From Sulfuricaulis sp. (GTDB taxonomy: Bacteria; Pseudomonadota; Gammaproteobacteria; Acidiferrobacterales; Sulfurifustaceae): DNA of 45,429 nt. Made by a program: the position numbers and the translations under genes. The notes under the pieces are model-generated. The model was not told where the DNA came from, searched no databases, and saw only the letters and a list, made by a program, of their open reading frames with translations. Where the stretch lies: positions 1 to 45,429 of the forward strand of contig JAUSDQ010000119.1 in assembly GCA_030650525.1 (NCBI GenBank), written 5' to 3'. Below, piece by piece: positions 8,276 through 42,706 of this stretch (position 1 is the first letter of the stretch; every line of letters starts with the position of its first letter).

Positions 8276-8335
8276 CCGAGTCACTCCTTTCTGGGTCAAT
8301 TCTTCAAAGGCGCAAGGGGCAAGTCCCGGCACCTG

Positions 8336-9466
8336 CTAGGCGTTTTCCATCAGTCGGCTGTAGCGCGTCAGGTGGAAATCAGTGTCACCAAACAGCACGT
8401 CCAGCATGGTCATATGCTTGAAGTAGTCGCCGACTTCGAGCTCGTCCGTCATGCCCATGCCGCCATGAAGCTGAACCGCCTGCTGTCCAATGAATCGTCC
8501 CGCGTTGGCGCACATGATTTTCGCGGCGGACAACATCTTTTGCGCCTGCTCTGTCTCGCCAACCGACACAGCATCGGCGGCGACGTAGGCCATGCTCAGT
8601 GCCAGTTCCTTCTGCACGAGCATGTCGGCAATGCGATGCTGCAAGGCCTGGAACGACGCCAATGGCTTCTTGAACTGATGTCGATTTTTGATAAATTCGA
8701 TGGTGATTTCAATCAAGCGCTCCATGGCACCCACGGCATGGGCACACAAGGGAGCAATGCCCTGATCAATGGCGTATTGCAGCCACTCAAGCGCGCCCGG
8801 GCCGCTGCGGATCATGCTCGACCGTGGAAGCCTGACAGATTCGAGTCGGATGTCCGCCGCCCCGTCTCCATTCATCGTAGGGTAGTCCACGACATGGACT
8901 CCTGCCCGGTCGCGCTCAACCAGGAACAATCCGAACTGTTCGCTGCCAGCCATCCTGGCTGAAACAATGAACGCATGCGCCGCACCGCCTGCCCAAACCA
9001 GCTGCTTGGCCCCGCAGATCTCGACACCGGTCTCGCTGACCATGGCACGGGTCTGGACTTGATCGAGGTTGTAACGACCTCGCACCTCTTGGTAGGCAGG
9101 CACCACAATTTTCTGTCCGCTGGCCATGCCTGGCAGCCAGACTTCCTTGGTCTCGCCGTTGTCGCATGCCTGGAGCAAGGTGGCAGCCATGACAGCTGAT
9201 GGAATCAGCGGGCCAGTCACCAAGCCCCGGCCGAGTTCCTTGTAAACGAGCAGTTGGCTGTGTGCATTTTCGCCAAAGCCACCGTATTCAGCTGGCAATG
9301 TCAGCCCCTGAATGCCCATGTCCGCGAGCGCGGACCACACGTCCTGATCAAAGCCCGACTGCTTGCGAGCCACCACACGGCGATTGGCAAAGGTGTATCT
9401 TGACTCGATGAACTTGCGCAGGCTGTCGACCAGCAGCTGCTGTTCCTCACGAATTAAAAAGTCCAT
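8336..9466 (-). CDS. Acyl-CoA dehydrogenase-family subunit lacking the catalytic base
   Basis: This 376-residue ACAD-like protein starts at MDFLIREEQQLLVDSLRKF. The frame runs open 62 codons further upstream, but those residues are not ACAD-like and would overlap the preceding gene. It has LPAEYGGFGENAHSQLLVY, IKNRHQFKKPLASFQALQHR and LHGGMGMTDELEVGDYFKH. At the helix-G position it reads YAIDQGIAPL, without Glu, and the C-terminus (FGDTDFHLTRYSRLMENA) lacks a YEGT motif. It therefore looks like the structural partner of the preceding ACAD (9481-10677), 14 bases upstream. This is the second catalytic/non-catalytic pair of unit B. Confidence 0.87.
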   Translation of the reverse strand: MDFLIREEQQLLVDSLRKFIESRYTFANRRVVARKQSGFDQDVWSALADMGIQGLTLPAEYGGFGENAHSQLLVYKELGRGLVTGPLIPSAVMAATLLQACDNGETKEVWLPGMASGQKIVVPAYQEVRGRYNLDQVQTRAMVSETGVEICGAKQLVWAGGAAHAFIVSARMAGSEQFGLFLVERDRAGVHVVDYPTMNGDGAADIRLESVRLPRSSMIRSGPGALEWLQYAIDQGIAPLCAHAVGAMERLIEITIEFIKNRHQFKKPLASFQALQHRIADMLVQKELALSMAYVAADAVSVGETEQAQKMLSAAKIMCANAGRFIGQQAVQLHGGMGMTDELEVGDYFKHMTMLDVLFGDTDFHLTRYSRLMENA

Positions 9467-9480
9467 GGTGTGCTCCCGTG

Positions 9481-10677
9481 TCAAAGTCCGAGGACTATTT
9501 TTGAGATGATGTTCTTCTGGACTTCCGTGGTGCCCCCGTAGATACTCGCCTTTCTCATGTCGAAATAGGCCGCTGCCGCCGGCGCCGCCCATTGCGGGCC
9601 GCTGACCGGCTGCACCACGCCGGGTTGAAGCCAGGCAGGCGAAAAGGGCCACGCGTCGGGACCGATGACTTCCAGCTGCACCATGGCAATCTGCTGCTGC
9701 AGCTCCGAACCCCGGATCTTGAGAACGGATACCTCGGGGCCCTGCTTCTCTCCGGCATCCTGACGAATTGTCTTTAGCAGCATCATCTCCAACGCCATCA
9801 GCTCCATCTCCAGTTGTGCAACCTTGTCCCTGATGCGCCCAGATTGAAGCAAGGACTGGCCGTATCCATCCATGGTTTGGGATGCGTAATGCTTGAGTTG
9901 CCGTAGCTCGCGCCGGCAGTGCCCCACACCCACAATTCCTGTTCGTTCATGCCCGAGAAGGTACTTGGCATAGGTCCACCCCTTGTTTTCGACCCCCACC
10001 AAGTTCTCCAAGGGTACTTCCACGCCATCGAGGAAGACCTCGTTGATATCCGAGCCTCCATCCAGGGTCACGATTGGCTGGACGCGAATACCCGGCGACT
10101 TCATATCGATGAGGAGCATCGATATGCTTTCCTGTGCCTTGGCATCGGGGTCGGTGCACACCAGGCAAAACATCCAGTCCGCCCAGTGGGCAAAGGTCGT
10201 CCAGATCTTCTGACCGGTTACGACGTATTTGTCACCAACCCGGATCGCCCGGGTCTTGAGCGCCGCCAGATCCGATCCCGCGCCAGGCTCTGAGTACCCT
10301 TGGCACCAAAAATCCTCCATTGGCGCAATACGGGGCAGGAACCTTGCCTTTTGCGCCTCTGATCCATACTTCATCAGTACCGGGCCGATCATGTTCAGCC
10401 CGAACAACACCGGACGCGGTGCGCCAGCTCTGAAGCACTCAATCTCGAAGATGAGCCTTTGAATCGGGCTCCAGCCGGTGCCCCCATGGGCCTTGGGCCA
10501 AATTGGAGCACCCCAACCCTTTTGATACAGGATGCGTTGCCAACGAACGTAGTCGTCGCGTATCAGATGCCTGTGGCCAAGCACCTTGCTGCTGATATCG
10601 GCGGGCAGATGGCCTTCGACAAAAGCCCTGACTTCGTCACGAAACTCAGTTTCTTCGGCGTGATGGAGGATGTTCAA
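9481..10677 (-). CDS. Acyl-CoA dehydrogenase, catalytic partner subunit (TTG start)
   Basis: The 398-residue ACAD has FWCQGYSEPGAGSDLAALKTRA, TGQKIWTTFAHWADW, helix-G LLGHERTGIVGVGHCRRELRQLK cut here to its key HERTG, and the C-terminal ASIYGGTTEVQKNIISK. Gly sits where MCAD has its Glu, so Glu in HERTG is the probable base. The start is assigned to TTG at 10677 (NILHHAEETEFRDEVRAF follows) because AAGGA lies six bases upstream. The frame also extends to an ATG at 10791, but that part overlaps the preceding CoA-transferase and is not ACAD-like. It is paired with the non-catalytic subunit at 8336-9466. The length and W-rich middle resemble steroid and terpenoid ACADs. Confidence 0.87.
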   Translation of the reverse strand: MNILHHAEETEFRDEVRAFVEGHLPADISSKVLGHRHLIRDDYVRWQRILYQKGWGAPIWPKAHGGTGWSPIQRLIFEIECFRAGAPRPVLFGLNMIGPVLMKYGSEAQKARFLPRIAPMEDFWCQGYSEPGAGSDLAALKTRAIRVGDKYVVTGQKIWTTFAHWADWMFCLVCTDPDAKAQESISMLLIDMKSPGIRVQPIVTLDGGSDINEVFLDGVEVPLENLVGVENKGWTYAKYLLGHERTGIVGVGHCRRELRQLKHYASQTMDGYGQSLLQSGRIRDKVAQLEMELMALEMMLLKTIRQDAGEKQGPEVSVLKIRGSELQQQIAMVQLEVIGPDAWPFSPAWLQPGVVQPVSGPQWAAPAAAAYFDMRKASIYGGTTEVQKNIISKIVLGL

Positions 10678-10744
10678 GGGAGTTCCTTCAGGAGACCTGC
10701 ACCATGGCAGGTGAATGGAAAGGCAAGACGGCAGGCGCGAACAC

Positions 10745-11968
10745 TCATAAGACCCCGTCCTTTCTAAGAGCGGCGATGCGGTCCGCACCAAGCCCGAGCT
10801 TCTTGCTCAGCACGTCATCGGTGTGCTCGCCCAAGCCGGGCGCGGAACGCTCGTAATGAATGGGCGTTTCCGAGAAATGGATGGGGTTGGCCACACCGGG
10901 CGCCTGGACACCGGCCGCATGCGGCAAGGACAGTCGCATGTGACGGTGCCGCACCTGAGCGTCCTCGAAGACCTGCTGCAGGTCGTAGATCGGCCCACAA
11001 GGCACGTTGGCGGCCCGTAGCAATTCGATCCATTGCGCCATGGTGCGGGTCTTCATGGCCTGCGCGATCTGGGGTATCAGTTCGACGCGGTTGCGGTTTC
11101 TCTCCCCCGCCGTGCTGAAGCGCGCATCGGTTCCCAGCGCGTCGCACCCAAGCGCCTTGCAGAAGGACCGGTATTGTGAGTCGTTGCCCACGGCAACGAT
11201 GATGTCGCCCTCCTTGCAGCGAAACACCTGGTAGGGCACCATGTTCAAATGGGCATTGCCCATCCGCCGGGGGACATTGCCGGAGAGAAAATAGTTGATG
11301 GCTTGGTAGGAGGTGATGCTCACCATGCAGTCGAGCAGGGAGATGTCGATGTACTGACCTTCGCCGCTGACGTTGCGATGCTCCAGCGCGGCCAGGATGG
11401 CGGTGGTGGCATACATGCCGGTCATCAAATCGCTCAGGCCGATACCCACCTTCATCGGCTCGTCACCGGGCTGGCCTTCGGGCTGCCCGGTCATGCTCAT
11501 GATTCCACCCATGCCCTGGAACACAAAGTCGTAACCCGGCAGATCGGCGCAGGGACCGTTCTGTCCGTAGCCGGTGATTGAGCAATAGACGATGCGCGGG
11601 TTGATTTTTCTGAGATCCTCGAAGGCCAGTCCGTAGCGCGCCAGCGCGCCCACCTTGTAGTTCTCGACCAGCACATCGGTGTCCCGCGCCAAGTCCCGGA
11701 TGATGCGTTGACCCTCGGGCGTCGCAATGTCAACGGTGATCGACTTCTTGCCCCGGTTCGCGCTGAGGAAGTAGGACGACGCGGTCGTTTCTTGCCCATG
11801 CACGTCCTTGAGGAACGGCGGCCCCCAGGCGCGGGTGTCATCCCCCCCTTGCGGACGCTCCACCTTGATCACCTCGGCGCCCATGTCAGCGAGATTCTGA
11901 GTAGCCCAAGGGCCTGCGAGGACGCGCGTGAGGTCCAATACCTTGATATGCCCGAGTGCGGTTTTCAT
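10745..11968 (-). CDS. CaiB/BaiF-family (type III) CoA-transferase
   Basis: The 407-residue protein shows the family pattern: LDLTRVLAGPWATQNLADMGAEVIKVE cut to its conserved core LAGPW at about residue 18, then ANRGKKSITVD (70-80), SITGYGQNGP (130-139) and GIGLSDLMTGMYA with the predicted nucleophile Asp180. These enzymes move CoA between an acyl-CoA and a free carboxylic acid through an aspartyl-CoA anhydride. Here it could activate the growth substrate or an intermediate with succinyl- or acetyl-CoA as donor, complementing the AMP-forming ligase of unit A. It precedes the two ACAD pairs. CoA donor and acceptor are not predictable from sequence. Confidence 0.9.
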   Translation of the reverse strand: MKTALGHIKVLDLTRVLAGPWATQNLADMGAEVIKVERPQGGDDTRAWGPPFLKDVHGQETTASSYFLSANRGKKSITVDIATPEGQRIIRDLARDTDVLVENYKVGALARYGLAFEDLRKINPRIVYCSITGYGQNGPCADLPGYDFVFQGMGGIMSMTGQPEGQPGDEPMKVGIGLSDLMTGMYATTAILAALEHRNVSGEGQYIDISLLDCMVSITSYQAINYFLSGNVPRRMGNAHLNMVPYQVFRCKEGDIIVAVGNDSQYRSFCKALGCDALGTDARFSTAGERNRNRVELIPQIAQAMKTRTMAQWIELLRAANVPCGPIYDLQQVFEDAQVRHRHMRLSLPHAAGVQAPGVANPIHFSETPIHYERSAPGLGEHTDDVLSKKLGLGADRIAALRKDGVL

Positions 11969-12017: not shown

Positions 12018-13301
12018 TCAGGCGGACGACGTCACCACGGCGCATGAGAATTCGCGCTGAAGGGCTTCACGATGGCGCGGATGAGCCACCGCGATCAGAC
12101 CCGCGGCGCGTTGTCGAGGGGACGCCGTGCGCACCGCTGCCACACCGTATTCCGTGACGACGAAATCCACATGAGACGAATCTATCGTCACGAGCTTGCC
12201 GGCGCCCAAATCCGACACGACGTTGCTGGCACCGTCCCTACCGTAGGTCGAGCGCAACGCGACAATGCTCACGCCCCCCTTGGCATGAACGGCACCGGCG
12301 GCAAAGTCGGGCAGCCCACCGGGTAGTGAGACGCGCCGACCATTGACCGACTCGGCGTTGACTTGAGCGGCGAGATCGACCTGCAGTGCGCTGTTGATGG
12401 CGCACAGACCGTCAATGCTGGCCAGTACGCTGGCATCGTGCGTCAGGGAGCAGGGGTGAAACTCAATCGCGGCGTTACGGTGCAGGAAGTCATAGAACGA
12501 CTGGCTGCCGCCGGCCATCGTGGTCACGCTGACGCCAGGCAAGTGGCGCTTCGTGCTGTTGTCGATCACGCCGGATTCGATCAGCGGGCGCACCGCGTCG
12601 GTCACGATGCCGGAATGCAGGCCCAGATGCGACAGGTGCCCAAGCTGGGCGAGCACCCGGTCAGGAAGCGAGCCTATACCAACCTGCAACACCGCGCCGT
12701 CGCGGACCAGGCCCGCGACATGGCGCGCGATCTGCTCGTCCACCTGGTCTGCTGGCGCGGGCGAAAGTTCCTGGGGCGGGCGATCCGCATCCACAAACCA
12801 GTCGATCAGCGAGATCGGCAAACGGGTGTCACCGCAGGTGTGGGGCATGTGGGGATTGATTTCGGCAACGATCAGCGGTGACTGCGCGAGCACGGCCCGC
12901 ATGTAATCCACGGAAACGCCGAGCGAGACCTGCCCCGCCTCGTCGGGGCTGGACACCTGAAGCAGCACCAGGTCCGCGCGCAACGCGCCGCTGTCAAACA
13001 GCTTGGGAATTGCCGACAGCGGATATCGCAGCGCCCGCGCCCTGTCGTCATTCAACGCGGAACGAAGCCCGCGGCCAGGGAAAAAGGTGGCGACATCGAG
13101 TTGCGCCGCGGGTCCTGCCTCGGCATAGGGTGAGTCGCCCATTGGCATGAGCGTGAGCAAATGCGCGCCACTGATGGCGCTGGCGTGTTCGGCCAGTTGC
13201 CGCGCCAGCCACCGTGGTTCGGCAAAACCGGAGTGCAGAACCACCGTGGTGTCCGCCCCCAATCGCGCCAACAAAGCGCCAACGTCGTACAGTCGTTTCA
13301 T
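12018..13301 (-). CDS. Acetyl-CoA hydrolase/transferase (family I CoA-transferase) homologue
   Basis: The 427-residue protein aligns by eye with 4-hydroxybutyrate CoA-transferase-type enzymes: VVLHSGFAEPRWLAR (residue 20), LQVGIGSLPDRVL (205), CAINSALQVDLAAQVNAES and the conserved FVVTEYGVAAVR near the end. The catalytic Glu expected in the motif GIHSEMISDGV appears as Gly231 here (LGLHSGIVTDAV). It may therefore use another nucleophile, act as a thioester hydrolase, or belong to a divergent subgroup. It lies between the 3-hydroxyacyl-CoA dehydrogenase (12-base gap) and CaiB gene. The biochemical assignment to CoA transfer is therefore tentative; the fold assignment is secure. Confidence 0.82.
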   Translation of the reverse strand: MKRLYDVGALLARLGADTTVVLHSGFAEPRWLARQLAEHASAISGAHLLTLMPMGDSPYAEAGPAAQLDVATFFPGRGLRSALNDDRARALRYPLSAIPKLFDSGALRADLVLLQVSSPDEAGQVSLGVSVDYMRAVLAQSPLIVAEINPHMPHTCGDTRLPISLIDWFVDADRPPQELSPAPADQVDEQIARHVAGLVRDGAVLQVGIGSLPDRVLAQLGHLSHLGLHSGIVTDAVRPLIESGVIDNSTKRHLPGVSVTTMAGGSQSFYDFLHRNAAIEFHPCSLTHDASVLASIDGLCAINSALQVDLAAQVNAESVNGRRVSLPGGLPDFAAGAVHAKGGVSIVALRSTYGRDGASNVVSDLGAGKLVTIDSSHVDFVVTEYGVAAVRTASPRQRAAGLIAVAHPRHREALQREFSCAVVTSSA

Positions 13302-13313
13302 GAATCGACCGGC

Positions 13314-14174
13314 TCAGTCCTTGGGCGCGTAGTCGTAAAAGCCCCTGCCCGACTTCTTGCCCCACGAGCCGCTTTCATACATCTGCTTCAACAAGTCGTT
13401 AGGTTTGGCGGCCTCGACACCGGTCTCCAGGTACTCGTCCATGCGGGCCAGGTAGGAAACATCGATGCCTGTGCTGTCGAGCAGACGCAGCGGCCCCATT
13501 GGATGGCCCAGGCCTTTCATCACCGCGAGGTCGATGTCCTCGGCCGTGGCATAGCCACCCTCCAGCAGGTTGACGGCCTCCTTGGTCAGGGCACGGAAAA
13601 TTCGATTGACGATGAAGCCCGGTACTTCCTTGCGCATCAGTACCGGCGTCTTGCCGATGCGGCGGCAGAAGTCCATCGCACGCGCGATGACCGCCTCGGG
13701 CACCGCCGGGTGCACAACGACCTCGACCAGCTCCATCACCAGCGCCGGGTTGAAGAAATGCAGATTGAGCACCTGACCAGGTCGCGTGGTGGCTTCGGCC
13801 AGTCGTGAACCTCGGATGTTCGAGCTGTTGGTGGTCAGCAGCGTATCAGCGGGACACAGCACGTCAAGCTGGCGAAAGAGCTCGGCCTTGGGCTCGAACT
13901 GTTCGATGATGGCTTCAATGACGATGGCAGCACCTTTGACGGCATCGGCCAGTGCGTTGTCCATGCGCAAGCGGCCCAGGGCCGCGTCGTGGTCGCCCGC
14001 GCTGAGCTTGCCCTTGGCGATGCGTCCGTCCAGATACTCTCGATAAAATGACATCGCCTGACCCAGTGATTCGGCTCGGCTGTCGTGCAGCACGACAGTG
14101 AAGCCTCGCAAGGCGCACTGCAACGCAATCTGGCGCCCCATTGCGCCCGCGCCAATGACGGCAACTTGTTCCAT
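13314..14174 (-). CDS. 3-Hydroxyacyl-CoA dehydrogenase, NAD-dependent
   Basis: The 286-residue protein has the Rossmann signature VAVIGAGAMGRQIALQ at its start and the catalytic His with surrounding residues in LNLHFFNPALVMELVEVV. The C-terminal domain signature is GHPMGPLRLLDSTGIDVSYL, ending with SGRGFYDYAPKD. This is the single-function HBDH/PaaH type, without a hydratase domain. It oxidises 3-hydroxyacyl-CoA to 3-ketoacyl-CoA with NAD. The start at 14174 follows AGAAGGA; an ATG six codons upstream is less well placed. It sits between a crotonase and the CoA-transferase homologue, and together with the thiolase makes a complete lower beta-oxidation set. Confidence 0.93.
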   Translation of the reverse strand: MEQVAVIGAGAMGRQIALQCALRGFTVVLHDSRAESLGQAMSFYREYLDGRIAKGKLSAGDHDAALGRLRMDNALADAVKGAAIVIEAIIEQFEPKAELFRQLDVLCPADTLLTTNSSNIRGSRLAEATTRPGQVLNLHFFNPALVMELVEVVVHPAVPEAVIARAMDFCRRIGKTPVLMRKEVPGFIVNRIFRALTKEAVNLLEGGYATAEDIDLAVMKGLGHPMGPLRLLDSTGIDVSYLARMDEYLETGVEAAKPNDLLKQMYESGSWGKKSGRGFYDYAPKD

Positions 14175-14192
14175 GATGAATCCTTCTGTCAA

Positions 14193-14951
14193 TCAGTTGT
14201 TCGCGGCGAAAGTCGCGATACCCGCCTTGCGCTCCTTCGATGCGTAGCAGGCGTTCGCGACCTCCATGTCGAAGCGGCAGGCGGCCCATGCGTTGACGCC
14301 GTCGTCGATGGCACGCTTGGCACCGCGCACGGCGGGCTGCATGTTGGCTGCAATCTCTTTAGCGAGTGACAGCGCCACTGCCAATTCCTCGCCGCGCGGT
14401 ACAACACGGTTGATGGCGCCCAGGCGCAGCATCTCTTGGGCTGGCAAGGTCTTCGCGGTCAGGATCAATTCCTTGGCGCGCGCAGGCCCGATCAACGCTG
14501 GCAGCTTGCGGCAACCACCAGCGGCAGGAATCAAACCCCACTTCACCTCCGGCAAACCGAAGCTCGCACCTTCCGCGGCAACGACAAGATCACACGACAG
14601 TGCCAGCTCAAAGCCACCAGCCAGCGTGTGGCCAAACACCGCAGCCACGGCGGGTTTGCCACGACCGTCGAGCTCGCGGTACATCGGGAACAGATCGCCG
14701 GCTCGGAAGGCCTCGGCCTCGCTGTCCGTGAAGGTCTGACGCTCCTTCAGGTCCACTCCGGTACTAAAGGCTCGCTCGCCCGCGGCGGCAAGCACGATGA
14801 CGTCAATACTGTCATCAGCCTCAAGATCGGCAATCGCCGCGCGCAACGCACGCGTCATCGCGCGGTTGATCGAGTTCAGTGCCTCGGGCCGATTCAGCGT
14901 CAGCACGGCAATGTGGTCGTCTCGCCGTTCAATTAGGATTTCGTCTGACAT
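14193..14951 (-). CDS. Enoyl-CoA hydratase (crotonase) with both catalytic glutamates
   Basis: The 252-residue crotonase has the oxyanion-hole loop AFSTGVDL near residue 60, the Glu144-type motif HTLAGGFELALSCDL, and the Glu164-type motif FGLPEVKWGLIPAAGG. Both acidic residues needed for water addition are therefore present, and a true 2-enoyl-CoA hydratase is likely. The order thiolase, hydratase, 3-hydroxyacyl-CoA dehydrogenase (gaps 12 and 18 bases) gives a coherent beta-oxidation cassette. Chain length and branching preference are unknown. Confidence 0.92.
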   Translation of the reverse strand: MSDEILIERRDDHIAVLTLNRPEALNSINRAMTRALRAAIADLEADDSIDVIVLAAAGERAFSTGVDLKERQTFTDSEAEAFRAGDLFPMYRELDGRGKPAVAAVFGHTLAGGFELALSCDLVVAAEGASFGLPEVKWGLIPAAGGCRKLPALIGPARAKELILTAKTLPAQEMLRLGAINRVVPRGEELAVALSLAKEIAANMQPAVRGAKRAIDDGVNAWAACRFDMEVANACYASKERKAGIATFAANN

Positions 14952-14963
14952 GCCTGGCTCCCT

Positions 14964-16154
14964 TCAGGACTCACGCCGGATCACCATGGCCGTGGTCACG
15001 CCACCCCCGCCGCAGATGCTGGCCACACCAAGTTCCTTGTCGTTGCGACGCAGGATGGACGCCAGAGTTATCAGTAAACGCCCGCCCGTGAAGCCGGTGG
15101 GATGCCCCAAGGCGATACCGCCGCCCCAAATATTGAGTCGCTCGCGATTCCAGCCCAGCTCCTTTTCGTTGGCCAGGATCTGGGCCGCGAAGGCTTCGTT
15201 GACTTCGATGAAGTCCATGTCGTTCAGGCTCATGCCGGCCTGCTTGAGCGCCAGCGGAATCGCTGCGCCAGGGCCGTCGCCCATCAGGGACGGCGCCACC
15301 GCCGTTTCCGCGAAAGACACCACGGAGAACAGTGGCGTGAGTCCCTGTGCCCTGGCGCGATCGCGCGTCGTCAGAACGATGGCGCAGGCCGCATCGCCCA
15401 TGGTGCAGGCATTGCCCGCGGTCACGGTGCCGTCTTTCTTGAACACGCTACGCAGCTTGGCCAACTTGTCCAGCGTGCTGTCGGGGCGCCAGCCTTCGTC
15501 TTGCGCGAACAACTCACCCGCGGGATGCTTCTTGCTGGGCTCCAGGCGAAAAGGCACGATTTCGTCGGCAAACCAACCTGCCGCTTGCGCCTTGGCGGCG
15601 CGCTGCTGGGATTGCAGCGCGAATGCGTCCTGGGCCTCGCGGCTCAGACCGTACTTGTCGGCCAGGTTCTCCGCGGTCAGGCCCATGCCGTAGCCACACA
15701 GGGGATCGATCGTGTCCGACCAGCTGTCAAGCAGTGTCTTGTCACCGGATTTGAAGCCTTCCCAGCGCGCGCCCTTGAGCAGGTAAGGCATGGTGCTCAT
15801 GGATTCCATGCCGCCGGCCATGACAAAGTCAGCGCCCGCCGCCTGCAACTCGCGCGCCGCCAGCATCACCGTCTTCATGCCCGACGGGCAGGCCATGTTG
15901 ACGGTCATCACCGGCGAGCTAACCGGCAAGCCCCCGCGTATCGCCGCCGTGCGCGCCGGATTCGGCCCATTGCCGGCCTGACGGCAGTTGGCGTAGATCA
16001 GCTTGTCGATCAGGCTGGCGTCCAGGCCACCGGCTGCCAGCGTGCCGCGAATCGCCGCCGCACCCAGGTCGTAGGCGGACACATCACGCAGCGTGCCGCC
16101 GAAGCTGCCGATCGGCGTGCGCCTGGCCGCCACCGCGACGATGTCCTTGTCCAT
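14964..16154 (-). CDS. Acetyl-CoA C-acyltransferase (thiolase)
   Basis: The 396-residue thiolase starts at MDKDIVAVAARRTPIGSFGG (16154). The open frame extends well upstream, but that portion is a shadow of the amidohydrolase gene. The acylated Cys is Cys89 in VNMACPSGMKTV. The second active-site set is ALGHPTGFTGGRLLI (His) and SICGGGGVTTAMVI (Cys). It cleaves 3-ketoacyl-CoA to acetyl-CoA or propionyl-CoA plus a shorter acyl-CoA, and with acetoacetyl-CoA synthetase it could convert acetoacetate to two acetyl-CoA. The gap to the amidohydrolase gene is 11 bases. Confidence 0.94.
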   Translation of the reverse strand: MDKDIVAVAARRTPIGSFGGTLRDVSAYDLGAAAIRGTLAAGGLDASLIDKLIYANCRQAGNGPNPARTAAIRGGLPVSSPVMTVNMACPSGMKTVMLAARELQAAGADFVMAGGMESMSTMPYLLKGARWEGFKSGDKTLLDSWSDTIDPLCGYGMGLTAENLADKYGLSREAQDAFALQSQQRAAKAQAAGWFADEIVPFRLEPSKKHPAGELFAQDEGWRPDSTLDKLAKLRSVFKKDGTVTAGNACTMGDAACAIVLTTRDRARAQGLTPLFSVVSFAETAVAPSLMGDGPGAAIPLALKQAGMSLNDMDFIEVNEAFAAQILANEKELGWNRERLNIWGGGIALGHPTGFTGGRLLITLASILRRNDKELGVASICGGGGVTTAMVIRRES

Positions 16155-16165
16155 GGCAGCGGCCT

Positions 16166-17008
16166 TCACAGCTTGTAAACCCGAGCAGCGTTGCCGTGCA
16201 GGATCTTGTCCGCGATTTTTTCGGTCAGGCCCAGTTCGTTGCGGATGATCTGGATCGCCTCCTTGTGCATCACGGCCGGATAGTTCGTGCCCCAGATGAC
16301 CTTGTTCTGCCCGCGTGTCTTCATGAACTGGATCAGCGTGGGCTCCAGGTACTTGGGGTTGTGGGCGTCGATGCCGAGATAGACGTTCTCGTGCTTCCAG
16401 GCCAGCGAGATCATCTCCTCGGTCCAAGGCCAGCCGGTGTGGGCGCCAATGATGGTGAGCTCGGGGAAGTCGAGCGCGATGTCGTCCATGTGGATGGGGC
16501 GGCCAAACTCGTTGGGCATGTGCTCGGCCGAATGACCGACCTGCATCGACACCGGAACGCCGAGCTCGGCGCACTTGGCGTAAAGCGGGTAGAACTGGCG
16601 GTGATTGAGCGGAATGCCCCAGCCATAGGGATGAATGTAAACGCCCTTGAATCCGTACTCTTTCACGGCCTTCTCGACCTGGCGAACACTCTCCATTCCC
16701 TTGAGCGGATTGAAGCCAGCCAGCCCGACAATACGGCCATTCGACTGCTTAACGGCCTCGTACACTTCTTCCTCTGTGATGTCCCACAGCAGCGTCTTCT
16801 TCTTGTAGGAGAACATTCGGATCGCCGGCACCAGCACCTTGGAACAACCGGCCTCATCCATCATGGCGACGAACTCTTCGACGGTCTTGCCTTTGACCCG
16901 ATCCTCCATCTTCCACCACTTGATGAGACGGTACATCTCGGGTGCGTCGAACCAATTTTTCTGGATCGATTCGGGCGTAAACAGATTGCAGTGAAAGTCG
17001 ATAGGCAT
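16166..17008 (-). CDS. Amidohydrolase-2 (ACMSD-like) TIM-barrel protein with altered metal ligands
   Basis: The 280-residue protein has the amidohydrolase_2 layout: an N-terminal MPIDFHCNLF, central MQVGHSAEHM and TIIGAHTGWPW, and IWGTNYPAVMHKEA near the end. Family members normally have HxH at the first strand and a GSDYP/GTDYP Asp. Here these are H6-C-N8 and N242 (GTNYP). Two metal ligands are therefore replaced by Asn, while the other two His are kept. The start at 17008 follows GGAG; an earlier TTG-started METT version would put the start inside that ribosome binding site. It lies between acetoacetyl-CoA synthetase and thiolase genes. It may hydrolyse or decarboxylate a pathway intermediate, or bind one; its role is unknown. 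Confidence 0.8.
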   Translation of the reverse strand: MPIDFHCNLFTPESIQKNWFDAPEMYRLIKWWKMEDRVKGKTVEEFVAMMDEAGCSKVLVPAIRMFSYKKKTLLWDITEEEVYEAVKQSNGRIVGLAGFNPLKGMESVRQVEKAVKEYGFKGVYIHPYGWGIPLNHRQFYPLYAKCAELGVPVSMQVGHSAEHMPNEFGRPIHMDDIALDFPELTIIGAHTGWPWTEEMISLAWKHENVYLGIDAHNPKYLEPTLIQFMKTRGQNKVIWGTNYPAVMHKEAIQIIRNELGLTEKIADKILHGNAARVYKL

Positions 17009-17059
17009 GGTTGTCTCCAATAAACTAGGGTGAAAGGAAATGGGTGAATGAGAAGGAAA

Positions 17060-19072
17060 TCAATGCGTCAATTGGGGGCGCGGGTAGTCGCGCGACTCCC
17101 GTGCAAAGCGGATGAAATACTCGATGGCAGACTGGTTGGCCATGGCGTCCCGGCTGGCTGCCTTCTCCATCGGCCAGCCCAGCAGCAGCTTGCGCACCGG
17201 TACTTCCATCTTCTTGCCGGTGAGGGTGTAGGGCACGGCATCAATCGCATAGATCTTGTCCGGTACATGGCGCGGGCTGGCCGCATCACGCAACTGGGCG
17301 TTGATACGCGACCTGAGCGCGTCGTCCAGCACAATGCCCGGCTTGAGCACGACAAACAGCGGCATGAAGAACTGCCCGCCATCGAGCTCACAACACACGA
17401 CCAGGCTGTCGGAAAGTTCGGGCACGCCTTCGAGAGCCTGATAGACCTCGGCCGTGCCGATGCGCACACCGAAGCGGTTGAGCGTCGAGTCGGACCGGCC
17501 ATAGATAAGGCACCCACCCCGAGCATTGATTTTGATGAAGTCACCGTGACGCCATGCGCCCGGAAAAACGTCAAAGTAGGATTCGTGGTACCTGCGCCCG
17601 CCGACGTCATTCCAGAAGTACAGTGGCATGGAAGGGAACGGACCCGTCAGCACCAGTTCACCGACCTCATCGGTCAGCTCACGTCCGTCATCACTCCAGG
17701 CGTGTAGGTCAATGCCCAGCGCCCGCGCCTGAATCTCGCCCGCATGGACCGGCAAGAGTGGCACGGCGCTAACCAGGCAGCTGCAGGTCTCCGTGCCGCC
17801 CGACTGGGAGCTGAACCAGCAGTCTTGTTCGACGTTTTCATAGAACCATTCGAACAGGTCAGGCCCCACGGGCGAGCCCCCCGTGAGGGTGGCTTCAATC
17901 TTCAGCTTGTACCTGTCCTTGGGGACCAGGCCGCTGCGGCGCATCAACTGCAGATAGGACGCGCTGGCGCCGAAGTAGGTGACGCCCGCATCCTGCGAAA
18001 GCTGCCATAACCTTCCGTTGTCCGGATGAACCGGGCTGCCGTCGTAAAGCACCACGGCCGCACCCGACAGCAGCGATGACACGACAACATTCCACATCAT
18101 CCAGCCCGTCGTGCTGTAGAAGAACATCACCGAGTCAGGCCGCAGGCCCATGTGCAGGCACACGAGCTTGTAGTGCTCCATGATGATGCCCACATGGCTT
18201 TGGGCAATGGCCTTGGGCAGGCCGGTCGTACCCGACGAGAACAGCACCCAGAGCGGGTGGTCATACGGCACATGCTCGTAGGGAAAATCATCCCGCGCGA
18301 TATCGGGGCCCTTCATCAAGGCACTCCACAGCATGCCCTGGTTCACGATGGCGTCTTGCCGGTCGGCTTTCAGGACCGGTACGCAGACCACATGACGCAG
18401 TGTCGGGAGCTGCTCCGTCAGTGCACGTACCTCGTCCTCGCGGGAGAAGGCCTTGCCATTGAAGTGGTAGCCATCGCAGACAAACATCAGTTGGGGCTGA
18501 ATTTGCGCGAACCGGTCAATCACGGTCTTGACGCCAAACTCCGGCGCCGACGATGACCAGATCGCTCCAATGGACGCGCAGGCCAGAAAGGCCACCACGG
18601 TCTCGGGAATATTGGGCAGGTAGGAGACGACGCAGTCACCTGGCTTGAGGCCCATTTTGCGAAGCTCGGTGGCCACGATGCGCACGCGACGGCCCAGTTC
18701 GTGCCATGAAATCGTGGCCAGCGGCGATTGCTCGTTCGCGTAATGAATGGCCACCTGCCCCGGAGCCGCCTCGGCCTCTTGGCGCAGAACGTGTTCCGCA
18801 TAGTTGACCCGCGAACCCTCGAACCACTTGCAGCCGGGCATGCTGCGCGTGTCAAGCACCTGCTTGTAAGGGCTTGCTGACTTCACGCCAAAGTAGTCCC
18901 ACAAGCTGCCCCAGAAGTCCTCCATGTGGTCCACCGACCAGCGGCGTAAAGATTCGTAGTCGCCGAAATCCAGCGAACGGGTCTCGCGCAGCCACGCCAT
19001 GTACCGCGCCATGCGTGAGCCCTGCACGAACGCCGCGGACGGTGTCCAGATCAGGTCGCCTTCATTGAGCAT
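17060..19072 (-). CDS. aacS: Acetoacetyl-CoA synthetase
   Basis: The 670-residue AMP-forming ligase has the acyl-CoA synthetase N-terminal region (FGDYESLRRWSVDHMEDFW), the P-loop VLFSSGTTGLPKAIAQSH, the adenine motif QSGGTETCSCL and a C-terminal KMEVPVRKLLLG with the catalytic Lys region. Length and the LDFGDYESL start match acetoacetate:CoA ligases rather than acetyl-CoA synthetases. It activates acetoacetate made by the HMG-CoA-lyase-like enzyme to acetoacetyl-CoA, which thiolase then splits. The start at 19072 (MLNEGDLIWTPS) is chosen; the open frame further upstream overlaps the biotin carrier region and is not conserved. The gene follows the carrier gene by 28 bases. Confidence 0.92.
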   Translation of the reverse strand: MLNEGDLIWTPSAAFVQGSRMARYMAWLRETRSLDFGDYESLRRWSVDHMEDFWGSLWDYFGVKSASPYKQVLDTRSMPGCKWFEGSRVNYAEHVLRQEAEAAPGQVAIHYANEQSPLATISWHELGRRVRIVATELRKMGLKPGDCVVSYLPNIPETVVAFLACASIGAIWSSSAPEFGVKTVIDRFAQIQPQLMFVCDGYHFNGKAFSREDEVRALTEQLPTLRHVVCVPVLKADRQDAIVNQGMLWSALMKGPDIARDDFPYEHVPYDHPLWVLFSSGTTGLPKAIAQSHVGIIMEHYKLVCLHMGLRPDSVMFFYSTTGWMMWNVVVSSLLSGAAVVLYDGSPVHPDNGRLWQLSQDAGVTYFGASASYLQLMRRSGLVPKDRYKLKIEATLTGGSPVGPDLFEWFYENVEQDCWFSSQSGGTETCSCLVSAVPLLPVHAGEIQARALGIDLHAWSDDGRELTDEVGELVLTGPFPSMPLYFWNDVGGRRYHESYFDVFPGAWRHGDFIKINARGGCLIYGRSDSTLNRFGVRIGTAEVYQALEGVPELSDSLVVCCELDGGQFFMPLFVVLKPGIVLDDALRSRINAQLRDAASPRHVPDKIYAIDAVPYTLTGKKMEVPVRKLLLGWPMEKAASRDAMANQSAIEYFIRFARESRDYPRPQLTH

Positions 19073-19100
19073 CGTATTCCCCTTCGAAGGATCCGGGGGT

Positions 19101-19316
19101 TCAGCGCAGGGTGATGACGGCGGAGCCGTCATCCAGAACAGTTCCTTCCGGCGCGACGATGGCGTCCACCGTGCCATCGATCTCGGCCTCGATCGGGATC
19201 TCCATCTTCATCGACTCAAGAATGGCCACGGTGTCGCCGGCTGCCACGGCGTCGCCGGGCTGCACGAGGATTTTCCAGATCGTGCCGGCCATGGGAGAAG
19301 AAATCTGCTTGCTCAT
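19101..19316 (-). CDS. Free-standing biotin carboxyl carrier protein
   Basis: This 71-residue protein is a single biotinyl domain: ISSPMAGTIWKILVQPGDAV, the biotinylation motif AILESMKMEIPIEAE with Lys37, and a closing DGTVDAIVAPEGTVLDDGSAV half. It has no Pro/Ala-rich N-terminal arm, unlike AccB. It would carry CO2 from the biotin carboxylase (22682-24043) to a carboxyltransferase. In MCC and PCC this domain is normally fused to the biotin carboxylase; here it is a separate gene between carboxyltransferase 3 and acetoacetyl-CoA synthetase. As the only carrier visible in the window, it may serve all three carboxyltransferases. Confidence 0.95.
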   Translation of the reverse strand: MSKQISSPMAGTIWKILVQPGDAVAAGDTVAILESMKMEIPIEAEIDGTVDAIVAPEGTVLDDGSAVITLR

Positions 19317-19350: not shown

Positions 19351-20886
19351 TCAAACTTGGTGGACCGCCGAGCGGCGCGGGATGACCCGGCTCTCGCGGC
19401 GACTGTAAATGCGAAAGCGCGCGATTAGTTCGTCGCGCAGGTGCGAGGGCTCAACAATGGCTTCCACATGGAAACGGTCGGCCGCCATGCCCATGACATC
19501 AATGTCGCGTGCATATTCCTCGCGCTTCTGCTTCACAAATGCGTCGCGCTGGTCCTCTGGCAGTTCCGCGACCTGCCGCGCATAGAGCGCATTGACGGCG
19601 GCCTCGGGGCCGACCAGACCGGCCATTCCACTCGGCAGCGCCAACAGGGCGTCAGGATGGGTGGAGGCACCCGACATCGCCACGTAACCACCGCCATAAC
19701 CCTTGCGGACCACGACTGAGATGCGCGGCACGGTGGACTCGCAAACCGCCGACAGCAGCTTGGCGCCATGTCGGATGATGCCCGCGCGTTCCATCTTGCT
19801 GCCGATCATGTAGCCGCTAACGTCCTGCAGGAACAGCAGCGGCACGTTGAAGGCATTACACATCCAGATGAAGCGCGTGGCCTTGTCGGAAGAATCCACA
19901 AACAGCACACCGCCCTTGACCTTGGAGTTATTGGCCAGAATACCGACGGACATGCCGCCCAAGCGGGCAAAGCCGGTCACGATCTCGGGCGCGAAAAGGG
20001 CCTTGACTTCATAAAAACTGCCCTCGTCCACCAAGCCGTCGATGAGCAGCTTGACGTCATAAGGCATGTTCTGGTTGGCCGGTATGATCTCCGCCAGCGG
20101 CTTGGGCGGCATCTTTGGTGCCCTGGCTTCAATCGCGGGTGGCTTCCCGTCCCATTTTGATGGCAGATACGACAGATAATCGCGCACCTTCGCAATGGCC
20201 TCGGCATCAGACTTGACCAGCACGTCTCCCAGGCCGCTCACCGTGCAGTGCATCAACGCGCCGCCGAGTTCCTCGTCGGAGATATCCTCGCCAATCGTCA
20301 TCTTGGCCATGCGGGGCGAACCCAGCATGGCCGTGGCCTGTTTGTCAACCATGATGGTCAGGTCACACAACGCTGGAATGTAGGCCGCGCCCGCGGGCGA
20401 GGGGCCAAACAATGCGCACACCTGGGGCACAATGCCCGAGATGACGACCTGGTTGTAGAAGATGTTCCCCCAGGCCCTGCGGCCAAGGTAAGTGTCGGCC
20501 TGCTCGTCCACCCGGGCACCGGCCGAGTCCACCAGGTAAACCAACGGAATGCCGGCCTCCTTGGCCATTTCCTGCATCCGTGTGATTTTTAGCATGCTGG
20601 TGTGACCCCAGGATCCGGCCTTGACCGTCATGTCATTGGCGATCACGGCCACATCGCGGCCCTGTATCCGCCCGATGCAGGTCACGACCGCATCAGCAGG
20701 CAAGTCGCGATGGATGCCGGCCAGCAGGCCGTCCTCGAAATCGAAGTCGCCGTCAAAAAGCAGCTGGAGGCGGTCACGCACCAGCATTTTCCCGGACTCG
20801 ATGTACTTCTCCCTGGCCTTGCCCTGGCCACCCGCGCGGGCTTTGTCCGCCCTCTGGCGCAGGTCTTCACTTTTACTTTGTGCCAT
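19351..20886 (-). CDS. Acyl-CoA carboxylase, carboxyltransferase subunit (paralogue 3)
   Basis: The 511-residue carboxyltransferase has the N-lobe VDSAGARVDEQADTYLGRR and FGPSPAGAAYIPALCDLTIMV (acyl-CoA binding), and the C-lobe GGVLFVDSSDKATRFIW with VSGYMIGSKMERAGIIRHGAK (biotin side). It is of the methylcrotonyl/propionyl type, transferring CO2 from carboxybiotin to an acyl-CoA. It is closely similar throughout to the protein at 28959-30497; both end in RR(S/A)AVH(Q/P)V. The start at 20886 follows a GGGGGAGA stretch. It lies between LiuC-like hydratase and the biotin carrier, the best candidate for the MCC-like step that feeds the HMG-CoA-lyase-like enzyme. Confidence 0.93.
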   Translation of the reverse strand: MAQSKSEDLRQRADKARAGGQGKAREKYIESGKMLVRDRLQLLFDGDFDFEDGLLAGIHRDLPADAVVTCIGRIQGRDVAVIANDMTVKAGSWGHTSMLKITRMQEMAKEAGIPLVYLVDSAGARVDEQADTYLGRRAWGNIFYNQVVISGIVPQVCALFGPSPAGAAYIPALCDLTIMVDKQATAMLGSPRMAKMTIGEDISDEELGGALMHCTVSGLGDVLVKSDAEAIAKVRDYLSYLPSKWDGKPPAIEARAPKMPPKPLAEIIPANQNMPYDVKLLIDGLVDEGSFYEVKALFAPEIVTGFARLGGMSVGILANNSKVKGGVLFVDSSDKATRFIWMCNAFNVPLLFLQDVSGYMIGSKMERAGIIRHGAKLLSAVCESTVPRISVVVRKGYGGGYVAMSGASTHPDALLALPSGMAGLVGPEAAVNALYARQVAELPEDQRDAFVKQKREEYARDIDVMGMAADRFHVEAIVEPSHLRDELIARFRIYSRRESRVIPRRSAVHQV

Positions 20887-20900
20887 GCCGTTCTCCCCCT

Positions 20901-21692
20901 TCAGGCCTTTCGGACCCACGACGGTTTGCGCTTCTCGGCGAAGCTGGCAAGGCCTTCTTTCGCCTCGGCGTCGTCCCACATGTCGGCGATGCGGTCCACC
21001 GTGTACATGCAGTTATCCTCGAAATCGTGTCGGTCCACATAGTCAATCAGCCGCTTGATGGTGCGCACCGCGCCCGGCGCGCACTGCAGCACGAGGTCAA
21101 TTTCCTCCCGCACCGCGGCGTCCAGGTCCCGCGGCGCCACAACCCGGTCCAACAAGCCCAGCGACACGGCTTCGGCGGCGCTGAAGGAGCGCGCATTCAG
21201 GAAGTAGCGGCGCGCCTTGGCCACGCCAAGGCGACGGATCACATAGGGCGAGATCATCGCGGGGATGAGGCCCAGGCGCGCCTCGGTGATCGAGTAGCTT
21301 GAGGGTTCCACGCCGATGGCGATATCACAGACCGACACCAGGCCGAGGCCGCCCGCATAGGCGGGCCCCTGAATACGGCCGATCAGCGGCTTGCTCAGCA
21401 AGTCGAGGTCACGCAACCAAAGCGCCAGCTTGCGAGCCTCGAGGATCTTCACGTCGCGCGTCGCCCCGCGTTGGGATTGCTGGTATTTCAGGTCGCCGCC
21501 CGAGCAAAAGGACTTGCCCTCGCCCGTCAGCACCACCAAACGCACGGCGGGATCGCTGTCGAAGCGGCGCACGGCGTCGCGGCCTTCGTCCCACATGAGG
21601 CTGTTCATGGCGTTGTGCACGTCGGGACGGTTCAGCGTCAGGGTCGCCACACCGCTGGGGTCAACATTGGCCTTGATGGTCTCGTAATTCAT
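20901..21692 (-). CDS. Methylglutaconyl-CoA hydratase-like crotonase (LiuC type)
   Basis: The 263-residue crotonase has the oxyanion loop FCSGGDLKYQQ, then GPAYAGGLGLVSVCDIAIG and SITEARLGLIPAMISPYVIRRLG. The first catalytic Glu position is Gly (GGLGL) while the second Glu (TEARLG) is present. That combination, and the IPAxISPYV stretch, is what I recall for LiuC-type 3-methylglutaconyl-CoA hydratases of leucine and isoprenoid degradation. It sits 14 bases upstream of carboxyltransferase 3 and 14 bases after the HMG-CoA-lyase-like gene, in the canonical carboxylase/hydratase/lyase grouping. Confidence 0.88.
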   Translation of the reverse strand: MNYETIKANVDPSGVATLTLNRPDVHNAMNSLMWDEGRDAVRRFDSDPAVRLVVLTGEGKSFCSGGDLKYQQSQRGATRDVKILEARKLALWLRDLDLLSKPLIGRIQGPAYAGGLGLVSVCDIAIGVEPSSYSITEARLGLIPAMISPYVIRRLGVAKARRYFLNARSFSAAEAVSLGLLDRVVAPRDLDAAVREEIDLVLQCAPGAVRTIKRLIDYVDRHDFEDNCMYTVDRIADMWDDAEAKEGLASFAEKRKPSWVRKA

Positions 21693-21706
21693 GACTTTGG
21701 ACTTTC

Positions 21707-22663
21707 TTAATGCGTTGATTTGTTGCGCATGCGCATGAGGCTGCCGCCCTTCATGACTTTGCCCGGAAGCGGGTGGCCGACGATCTCTTCAGCCATCAGG
21801 GCGCACTCGATCATTCGGTCGAGATCAATGCCGGTTTCAATCCCCATCTCGTGGCACATGAAGACAAAATCCTCCGTGCAGATGTTGCCGGCCGCGCCCT
21901 TGTGGGCCGCGAACGGGCAGCCCCCCAAGCCCGCGCAGGAGCTGTCGAACTGGTCCACGCCCATTTGCAGGGCCGCCAGCGCATTGGGCAGGCCGGTGCC
22001 GCGGGTATCGTGCAGATGCAGGCCGATGCGCATGTCGGGCCAGCGCTCCCGCAGTGCGCCCACGCGCTGCTGGATGGCGTTGGGGTTTGCCCAGCCCACC
22101 GTGTCCGCGAGATAGAGGCCCTGGATCTTCACACCCTGATCCTTGGCGATGTCCAGCAGTCGGGTGCAGCGGTCCACCACGGTGGACAGGGCGATCTCGC
22201 CTTCATAGTTGCAGCCGAAGGCGGTGAAGACCGTCGCCCAGCGTACGTCCACCTTGTTGTCCCTGTAGAGGTGCAGCGTGGCCGCCTGGTCCTCGAAGGC
22301 CTCCTCGATGGTCTTGCCGACGTTCTTGAGGTTGAAGGTTTCCGAGCATGGCACGATCAGCGAGCCGATCAGGTCCAGCGGCTGCTTGAGTGCCCGCCTG
22401 AAGCCGGCCGCGTTGAGCCACAGCCCGGTATAGGCCACCCCCGGCTTGCGACGGATGGCGCGCGCGACCTCTTCCGCGTCCGCCATGCCCGGCACACGCG
22501 CCGGGTTGACCCAGGACACGCAGTCGATCTTCTTGAGTCCGGTTTCGGCCAGCGCCTCGATCAAGCGCACTTTGTCGGCAGTGGAAATCGGCCCGCTTTC
22601 GATCTGAAAACCTTCTCGAGGTCCCTCTTCCTGGATGGTGACAAATTTGGGCAGATCGGACAT
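21707..22663 (-). CDS. Hydroxymethylglutaryl-CoA lyase-like protein
   Basis: The 318-residue TIM-barrel protein has the DRE-metallolyase signature as QEEGPREGFQIES, the metal-binding HLHDTRGTGLPNALAAL, and the HMG-CoA-lyase loop AGLGGCPFAAHKGAAGNICTEDFVFM with its catalytic Cys in GGCPFA. HMG-CoA lyase splits 3-hydroxy-3-methylglutaryl-CoA into acetoacetate and acetyl-CoA in Leu/Atu-type pathways. The usual EVGPRDGLQNE is here EEGPREGFQIE (Asp to Glu, Leu to Phe), so a different 3-hydroxyglutaryl-CoA homologue may be its substrate. It lies 18 bases after the biotin carboxylase gene and before the LiuC-like hydratase. Confidence 0.88.
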   Translation of the reverse strand: MSDLPKFVTIQEEGPREGFQIESGPISTADKVRLIEALAETGLKKIDCVSWVNPARVPGMADAEEVARAIRRKPGVAYTGLWLNAAGFRRALKQPLDLIGSLIVPCSETFNLKNVGKTIEEAFEDQAATLHLYRDNKVDVRWATVFTAFGCNYEGEIALSTVVDRCTRLLDIAKDQGVKIQGLYLADTVGWANPNAIQQRVGALRERWPDMRIGLHLHDTRGTGLPNALAALQMGVDQFDSSCAGLGGCPFAAHKGAAGNICTEDFVFMCHEMGIETGIDLDRMIECALMAEEIVGHPLPGKVMKGGSLMRMRNKSTH

Positions 22664-22681
22664 GGGTGTCTCCGCGTTTGT

Positions 22682-24043
22682 TTATTGAATGAGGGCAGCC
22701 AGGTTGTCCCCCAGCCAGGTGGTGTGGACACGGCCCGCTGCGAAGTCCGGATGGACCAGCAGCTTGCGCAGGAAGTCGCGGTTGGTCTCGATGCCCTCCA
22801 CAACCAGGCTGCCAAGCGCAGCGTCCAGCCGCGCAATGGCATCGGCGCGGTTGTCACCGTGCGCGATGATCTTCATCAGCATCGGGTCATAGTGGGGCGT
22901 GACCTTCATACCCTGCCGGTAACCCGTGTCGATCCGAAGGCCGGGGCCATCGGGCAAGCGCAGCACGTTCAAGGGCCCGGGCGAGGGAATGAAATTGCGG
23001 GCCGGCCGCTCAGCGTACAAACGCGCCTCGACGGCCCAGCCACGCGTGGAAATGTTGTCTTGGCGCATCTCGCGGGCCAGGTCTTCTCCCATGGCCTGGC
23101 GGATCTGGGCCATGACAAGGTCCACACCGGTCACCATCTCCGTCACCGGGTGCTCGACCTGGATGCGCGTGTTCATCTCCAGAAAGAAATAACGGCCGGT
23201 TTCCTCGTCGTACAGGAACTCGACGGTGCCCGCACCTTCATAACGGCAGGCCTCGGCCAGTTTGACCGCAACCTCGGCAATGTCGCGCCGCGTCTTGTCG
23301 TCGAGCGCTGGCGACATGGCCTCCTCCACCACTTTCTGGTGGCGGCGCTGCACCGAGCAGTCTCGCTCCATCAGGTGCACGGCGCGGCCGTCGCCAAAGC
23401 CGAACACCTGCACTTCGATATGGCGCGCACAGCGGATGAAATGCTCCAGGTAAACACCGCCATCACCGAAGGCCCGCTCGGCCAGCGAACGCGTTGTGGC
23501 GACCGCCTCCAGAAGCGCTTCGGGTGAGTCGACCCGGCGCATGCCGATGCCACCACCACCGGCCGCCGCCTTGACGAGCAGCGGATAGCCAACCGCCGCG
23601 GCCTGGGCGCGGATGGTGTCGTCGCCGCCATCGAGCCGGGTCGTGCCCGGCGACACCGGTACACCGGCCTCAATGGCGATGCGCCTGGCCTGGTCCTTGT
23701 CGCCCATGGCCTGGATGACCTGCGGCGAAGGTCCGATGAAGCGCAGACCGGCGTCGCTGCAACGCTGCGCGAAGCCGCTGTTTTCGGCGAGAAAGCCGTA
23801 GCCCGGATGCAGCAAGGTGGCACCAGTCTGGCGAGCCGCATCGATCAGCACGTCCTGTCGCAGGTAGCTTTGCGCCGCGGCCGCCGGCCCTATGGCCACA
23901 GTCTCATCGGCTGCCTCGACGTGAGGTGCGCCCGCGTCGGCCTCGGAATACACCGCAACAGTGCGCAGTCCAAGCGCCTTGGCCGCACGGATGACCCGGC
24001 AGGCGATTTCTCCGCGGTTCGCAATGATCAGCTTTTTATGCAC
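22682..24043 (-). CDS. Biotin carboxylase subunit (no carrier domain)
   Basis: The 453-residue protein is a complete ATP-grasp biotin carboxylase: N-domain LIIANRGEIACRVIRAAKAL, glycine loop LLVKAAAGGGGIGM (about 155-168), MERDCSVQRRHQKVVEEAMS, and active-site FLEMNTRIQVEHPVTEM with the catalytic Arg. It ends at ETNRDFLRKLLVHPDF. It therefore lacks the BT and BCCP domains of the 650-residue MccA/PccA alpha subunits and needs the free carrier at 19101. It is the first gene of unit B, 27 to 33 bases downstream of a predicted -10 overlapped by operator 1. It is the only intact biotin carboxylase in the window, against three carboxyltransferases. Confidence 0.95.
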   Translation of the reverse strand: MHKKLIIANRGEIACRVIRAAKALGLRTVAVYSEADAGAPHVEAADETVAIGPAAAAQSYLRQDVLIDAARQTGATLLHPGYGFLAENSGFAQRCSDAGLRFIGPSPQVIQAMGDKDQARRIAIEAGVPVSPGTTRLDGGDDTIRAQAAAVGYPLLVKAAAGGGGIGMRRVDSPEALLEAVATTRSLAERAFGDGGVYLEHFIRCARHIEVQVFGFGDGRAVHLMERDCSVQRRHQKVVEEAMSPALDDKTRRDIAEVAVKLAEACRYEGAGTVEFLYDEETGRYFFLEMNTRIQVEHPVTEMVTGVDLVMAQIRQAMGEDLAREMRQDNISTRGWAVEARLYAERPARNFIPSPGPLNVLRLPDGPGLRIDTGYRQGMKVTPHYDPMLMKIIAHGDNRADAIARLDAALGSLVVEGIETNRDFLRKLLVHPDFAAGRVHTTWLGDNLAALIQ

Positions 24044-24074
24044 AACGGATGACTCCTCGATATCTGCTTTGACA

Positions 24075-24106
24075 CTATTATAGTCCGACGTGTCGGTTTT
24101 AATATA
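24075..24106 (-). promoter_or_regulatory. Operator/promoter 1 for unit B
   Basis: The core CCGACGTGTCGG lies at 24085-24096 (5-bp inverted repeat around GT). On the minus strand it is followed, after 2 bases, by a perfect TATAAT at 24082-24077. The 35 region is AT-rich and poor. The same core is found at 37281, 40219 and 44706. The operator fills the -35/-10 spacer, so a bound repressor would block polymerase. The likely ligand-binding repressor is the TetR at 40357-40953 (inference). Confidence 0.75.
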
Positions 24107-24139
24107 AGAAAAAATTCACGACAATTCTGGTTGGATGTT

Positions 24140-25300: not shown

Positions 25301-25335
25301 GGCTATTGATGAAGTTTCAGGGTTGATCGAAAGCC

Positions 25336-26916: not shown

Positions 26917-26946
26917 GGGTGTTGCTTCGGGATTTGGGGAAATATT

Positions 26947-27747: not shown

Positions 27748-27758
27748 GGTGCTCTCCA

Positions 27759-28904: not shown

Positions 28905-28958
28905 TTCGAATTCCTTCATGAAAATTTCTCTTTCTGTACTCTGTAATGGGTTGGCGTG

Positions 28959-30497: not shown

Positions 30498-30575
30498 TGC
30501 TTTTGTCTGCTGTGTTTTGAAATGACCCATGCTGCGGGATTCGGATTCACGGAATGCGCCGCGGCGTCGGTGCTC

Positions 30576-42633: not shown

Positions 42634-42706
42634 GGTGACAAATGATGTTAATCAGTTAATCAGTTGAGCGATGCACTACCGCTGCAAGATGGGGATTCGC
42701 GGACAG

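Follow-up and report, generated by a model that had tools for sequence, protein, structure and literature searches.

The window analysed here (the whole 45,429-nucleotide stretch of a Sulfuricaulis sp. contig) encodes, within a cluster of acyl-CoA genes, a member of a normally zinc-dependent enzyme family whose metal site appears to have been largely replaced, and this raises the question of what such a protein does in the cluster. The protein, hereafter AMH, has 280 residues and is encoded at 16166-17008 on the minus strand (ATG at 17008, TGA at 16168-16166, alternative TTG start at 17020), and an ORF check upheld the coordinates given in a first-pass annotation of the sequence. AMH is a TIM-barrel Amidohydro_2 protein that matches PF04909 over the entire profile (E = 1.4e-42; 146.9 bits against a cut-off of 26.4), and no family was assigned to it by NCBIfam or PHROGs. 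Pairwise dN/dS values of AMH against five relatives lie between 0.03 and 0.15, which rules out a pseudogene and identifies AMH as a working gene that is under purifying selection and not in decay.

Replacement of the metal ligands

To AMH we aligned homologues from genome contigs together with 23 PF04909 members of six genomes (two of these 23 belong to AMH's own HxH-less family). Two metal-complete relatives, G101:C56:37565-38383 and G103:C24:338514-339344, fall into one large clade with AMH and carry the canonical set, namely HxH on strand 1, the strand-5 His (FHTG), the strand-6 His (AHPGWPW or AHPSFPW) and the strand-8 Asp (GSDFP or GSDYP). BLASTP alignments pair Q156 of AMH (16541-16543, minus strand) with the strand-5 His, placing SMQVGH of AMH opposite LFHTGQ of a metal-complete relative, N242 (16283-16285, minus) with the strand-8 Asp, and H190 (16439-16441, minus) with the strand-6 His. 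At strand 1, H6-C7-N8 (HCN; 16985-16993, minus) takes the place of the HxH motif, and the strand-8 motif reads GTNYP (residues 240-244) with N242 in the Asp position. By this alignment the ligands H8, H156 and D242 of the metal-complete relatives correspond to N8, Q156 and N242, such that three of the four predicted zinc ligands are replaced by Asn, Gln and Asn, and the first His is the sole one remaining. In actinobacterial members the motif is LCN instead of HCN, and these proteins therefore keep none of the four.

The first-pass annotation had recognised HCN in place of HxH and Asn in place of the terminal Asp, both of which align as it proposed with the HxH and Asp of metal-complete members, but it counted two replaced ligands and overlooked the third at Q156. 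It had also taken the His of VGHSAEHM for a retained barrel His; H159 of this motif lies three residues past the strand-5 ligand position, and a role as the strand-5 ligand is ruled out by the alignment because Q156 occupies that position. The His of IGAHTGW (H190) is indeed present, but its equivalent in ACMSD, His228, is the acid/base residue and does not belong to the set of four zinc ligands. A search against the metal-complete relatives for ordinary ligands in shifted positions found none at or beside the lost positions. Ligand variation is not confined to AMH in PF04909, as ExH and FCH variants also occur among the background members surveyed. Compared with metal-dependent ACMSD-type decarboxylases, AMH lacks the strand-1 HxH (or ExH), the strand-5 His and the strand-8 Asp and has the strand-6 His. 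Taken at the level of sequence, AMH is apparently metal-free.

Conservation, phylogeny and distribution

N8, Q156 and N242 are invariant in all 17 close homologues (66-91% identity; Proteobacteria and Actinobacteria). As 132 of the 280 columns are invariant within the same set, this invariance is best read as meaningful, not extreme. Neither HxH nor the strand-5 His occurs in any of the 69 homologues compared, and H190 as well as E197-E198 of GWPWTEEM (16415-16420, minus) are present in 69/69. In the tree, which includes long-branched background rows, the Asn242 group forms a single clade (97/91) that is accounted for by one D to N change, and its sister groups keep Asp242 although HxH and H156 are already gone, implying that the metal site was lost stepwise. 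Together, the sequences indicate that the replacement amides are maintained by selection.

Four other histidines offer a different explanation, in which H126 (at the end of strand 4), H159, H190 and H216 bind metal at a relocated site and AMH is still a metallo-enzyme. None of the four varies among the 17 close homologues, and loci L018 and L019 have them as well. In more distant relatives, by contrast, position 126 holds Tyr or Glu in two of three groups and position 216 Tyr or Trp, likewise in two of three groups, and many rows have Gly, Thr or Arg at 159. We therefore regard a relocated site as unlikely.

The close clade looks rare. It accounts for 16 of the 70 loci returned by a pattern scan of 84,980 species genomes, a scan that finds close relatives only, and for 2 of 121 sampled Aromatoleum-family, 3 of 55 Magnetospirillum-family and 1 of 294 Janthinobacterium-family genomes; the AMH gene is absent from all 95 relatives of the window's source genome. 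A contig assigned to Tepidamorphus by binning contains a 91% match, and Janthinobacterium has one of 90%. This distribution may fit either horizontal spread or a mis-binned source contig. More distant homologues (45-46% identity) are found on haloarchaeal plasmids (L072, 12001-12828; L126, 7001-7828), where nearby genes encode a thiolase, an acyl-CoA dehydrogenase and a zinc-ribbon partner, and the L072 protein keeps GTD while having WCN at strand 1 and Gln at the strand-5 position.

Structure and nearest known proteins

An AlphaFold2 model of AMH built on a 28-row alignment (pLDDT 93.2) gave as its top VIA-align match PDB 3irs (Z 29.6, 2.6 A over 269 residues), followed by metal-dependent ACMSD-type decarboxylases (Z 20-24), and COG3618 structures were also among the fold matches. 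The 3irs/3k4w protein is BB4693 of Bordetella bronchiseptica, which is uncharacterised and is the closest match to AMH in both sequence (~25% identity) and fold. Over the aligned region, which excludes its N-terminus, BB4693 resembles AMH in keeping the strand-6 His and WPW and in lacking the strand-5 His (Met at this position) and the strand-8 Asp (GTAYP); it differs in having Ala at 242 and Glu at 126. With the ACMSD, gamma-resorcylate and 5-carboxyvanillate decarboxylases of PF04909, AMH shares the fold, the strand-6 His and the loop order, but three of the four metal ligands are replaced and the substrate-binding Arg (R239 of ACMSD) is not conserved, its position being apparently occupied by Met199 in a hand alignment. 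Diiron oxygenases of AMH-like fold (PtmU3, SfbO and TruffO) were also considered and set aside, as they hold metal and AMH is found in anaerobic operons.

LigI, the 2-pyrone-4,6-dicarboxylate lactonase of COG3618, is a metal-independent member of the superfamily that keeps its strand-8 Asp as a base. This precedent for metal-free lactone hydrolysis, along with the COG3618 fold matches, could favour a LigI-like lactonase, or a thioesterase, with a role in recycling dicarboxylyl-CoA that has reached a dead end, or the lactones formed from it. However, LigI belongs to another subfamily, the residue corresponding to its base is Asn in AMH, and the window already encodes dedicated TesB-type thioesterases, making metal-free ester hydrolysis a rather improbable function for AMH.

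Gene neighbourhood in the window

A gap of 11 nt separates the AMH stop codon from the ATG of a thiolase gene of the acetyl-CoA acyltransferase type (14964-16154), and further genes follow on the same minus strand: a short-chain enoyl-CoA hydratase, ECH1 (14193-14951), a 3-hydroxyacyl-/3-hydroxybutyryl-CoA dehydrogenase, HBD (13314-14192), an acetyl-CoA hydrolase/transferase family protein, AcHyd (12018-13301), a family III CoA-transferase of the CaiB type (10745-11968), two acyl-CoA dehydrogenases resembling the large (PimC-like, 9481-10791; 460 bits, cut-off 624) and small (PimD-like, 8336-9652; 281 bits, cut-off 653) subunits of pimeloyl-CoA dehydrogenase, the acyl-CoA dehydrogenase ACD1 (7118-8332) and an acyl-CoA dehydrogenase-like partner, A5 (6113-7108). 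Short-chain models of the crotonyl/hydroxybutyryl/acetoacetyl type give good scores for thiolase, ECH1 and HBD, none of them above an equivalog cut-off. Upstream of AMH are an acetoacetate-CoA ligase (17060-19177, minus; 783.6 bits, cut-off 520.9) and a leucine-type arm (19351-24043, minus) of carboxyltransferase, enoyl-CoA hydratase, HMG-CoA lyase (above its subfamily cut-off) and biotin carboxylase, and farther upstream come more acyl-CoA genes together with an ABC transporter of the branched-chain type. Among the cluster genes that were scanned with Pfam, no further decarboxylase was recognised. The first-pass view of AMH as an ACMSD-like, metal-poor or repurposed protein in an acyl-CoA cluster agrees with the fold, the ligand loss and these neighbours.

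Two further features of the window are worth recording. A TesB-type acyl-CoA thioesterase gene (42676-43602, minus) appears frameshifted, with its C-terminal half in another frame of the same strand, which would reflect an assembly error or a broken gene. The interval 19351-30530 (minus) encodes three different biotin-dependent carboxyltransferase subunits and one recognised biotin carboxylase, a gene set that, with its leucine-type HMG-CoA lyase arm, points to the breakdown of a compound that is methyl-branched or a terpenoid; papers on limonene pathways in Castellaniella and in a methanogenic enrichment make no mention of an amidohydrolase.

Recurrence of the neighbourhood and its presence in the mbd cluster

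In two phyla, the amidohydrolase genes of the close homologues recur beside thiolase and ECH1, in most cases with HBD as well. A corresponding run, with biotin carboxylase and HMG-CoA lyase at one end, the crotonase B12 at the other and the amidohydrolase in between, is present in Janthinobacterium sp. PC23-8; most of its genes are 63-90% identical, and the CaiB and PimC/PimD-like genes are missing from it. The Aromatoleum homologues lie beside genes for class I benzoyl-CoA reductase subunits and Had, Oah and Dch-like proteins, and a Paramagnetospirillum locus is similar. In a Betaproteobacterial MAG (L004, 10667-13769), two decarboxylases of the UbiD family come after the amidohydrolase-thiolase-ECH set. 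The recurring neighbourhood, the tight coupling to thiolase and the lost metal ligands would also be expected of a non-catalytic pseudoenzyme that acts as a CoA-ester-binding partner or scaffold of the thiolase, but the invariance of H190, E197 and E198 in every homologue is what catalysis would predict, and we consider such a role very unlikely.

One Aromatoleum-family genome (G147) carries an AMH copy with 75% identity in a cluster that contains reductase subunits, the AMH orthologue, thiolase, ECH, HBD and Had, Oah and Dch homologues and continues, after further genes, with AcHyd (57% identical to the window copy), ACD1 (69%), A5 (47%) and B12 (69%); it also holds a divergent ABC transporter, a CoA ligase and a TetR regulator. 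This regulator is identical over 214/214 residues to PDB 4uds ('MBDR REGULATOR'), which identifies the genome as that of Azoarcus sp. CIB or of a strain sharing this regulator. Judged by this identity, the cluster is the mbd (3-methylbenzoyl-CoA) cluster, in which the mbdO-orf9 operon is described as taking 3-methylbenzoyl-CoA via hydroxymethylpimelyl-CoA to central metabolism and as including some genes of unknown function (PMC4424350). The mbd cluster of Azoarcus sp. CIB and the window thus have in common the amidohydrolase, thiolase, ECH1, HBD, AcHyd, ACD1/A5 and B12, the last of which (43609-44457, minus) is ~36 kb from A5 in the window whereas its mbd counterpart adjoins A5. By contrast, benzoyl-CoA reductase, Had, Oah and Dch are absent among the window's annotated genes, and the window has its own PimCD-like dehydrogenases, CaiB transferase and leucine-type HMG-CoA arm. 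The first-pass annotation had suggested a potentially new reaction; this context places it in the lower pathway by which branched dicarboxylyl-CoA (substituted pimelyl-/glutaryl-CoA) is degraded, and AMH probably performs a real step in the breakdown of branched dicarboxylic CoA esters.

Candidate reactions

According to the literature, two amidohydrolases have an operon context of the same kind as that of AMH: ThnN of naphthalene degradation and BamU of Geobacter benzoate degradation (PMC12016498, PMC1924859). A 2025 review names ThnN as the best remaining candidate for the first ring opening of naphthalene and describes BamU as a relative of ThnN whose function is unknown (PMC12016498). AMH could by analogy be a metal-free C-C hydrolase (ring-opening or retro-Claisen) whose substrate is a 3-oxoacyl-CoA, either cyclic or linear, in line with what has been suggested for ThnN, and the C-C hydrolase LigY shares its fold. 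On the other hand, LigY depends on a metal, as does the mechanism put forward for ThnN, and Aromatoleum and CIB already have a gene for an Oah-type ring hydrolase in the vicinity. We consider C-C hydrolysis rather unlikely and rank it next after decarboxylation.

We favour a function as an alkyl-glutaconyl-CoA decarboxylase, and give a chance of about one in three to AMH being an ACMSD-derived, metal-free enzyme of this kind in which a cage of three amides (N8, Q156 and N242) replaces zinc. The short-chain model scores of the downstream enzymes suggest that a C4-C5 enoyl-CoA probably enters them. In the lower benzoyl-CoA pathway, glutaryl-type intermediates lose CO2 on or after dehydrogenation. 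Decarboxylation is ranked first on the basis of this C4-C5 entry, the CO2 loss, the decarboxylase kin of AMH and the lack of another recognised decarboxylase in the cluster; the PimC/PimD-like dehydrogenases of the window and the AcHyd, ACD1, A5 and B12 genes shared with mbd also count in its favour. Counting against it, known decarboxylases of the family use a divalent metal, Met199 appears at the position of the ACMSD substrate-binding Arg, the wider HxH-less family occurs in varied acyl-CoA contexts that do not all need a decarboxylase, the four clade-specific histidines could hold metal elsewhere, and in mbd a glutaryl-CoA-type dehydrogenase could itself decarboxylate.

The conversion of three ligands to carboxamides suggests that the former metal pocket offers neutral hydrogen bonds, which could be directed, for example, at the carbonyl of a thioester or at an enolate, H190 serving as the acid/base residue. 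From these features we infer the absence of metal, the role of the amides, the substrate and the decarboxylation itself, in the following scheme. An acyl-CoA dehydrogenase would produce alkyl-glutaconyl-CoA, which AMH would decarboxylate without a metal; in place of the zinc site, a neutral cage of the N8, Q156 and N242 carboxamides would bind the carbonyl of the thioester and take over from the metal the stabilisation of the dienolate. The retained His190/Glu197-198 would supply the proton, and the short enoyl-CoA product would pass to ECH1, HBD and thiolase, the products of the three genes downstream of AMH.

Implications

The analysis places a metal-poor amidohydrolase in mbd, a genetically tractable operon that has been characterised in the literature. 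Tentatively, AMH may represent a new class of cofactor-free enzymes that decarboxylate CoA esters or cleave C-C bonds, in which an amidohydrolase barrel would rely on an oxyanion cage of three amides instead of zinc; such a class would serve in both anaerobic and aerobic degradation of alkyl-substituted rings and might include ThnN and BamU. AMH would also be a clear case of a metal site replaced stepwise by amides. If ThnN and BamU do belong to the AMH clade, the opening of the naphthalene ring, for which a metal-water mechanism is assumed, would have to be reconsidered.
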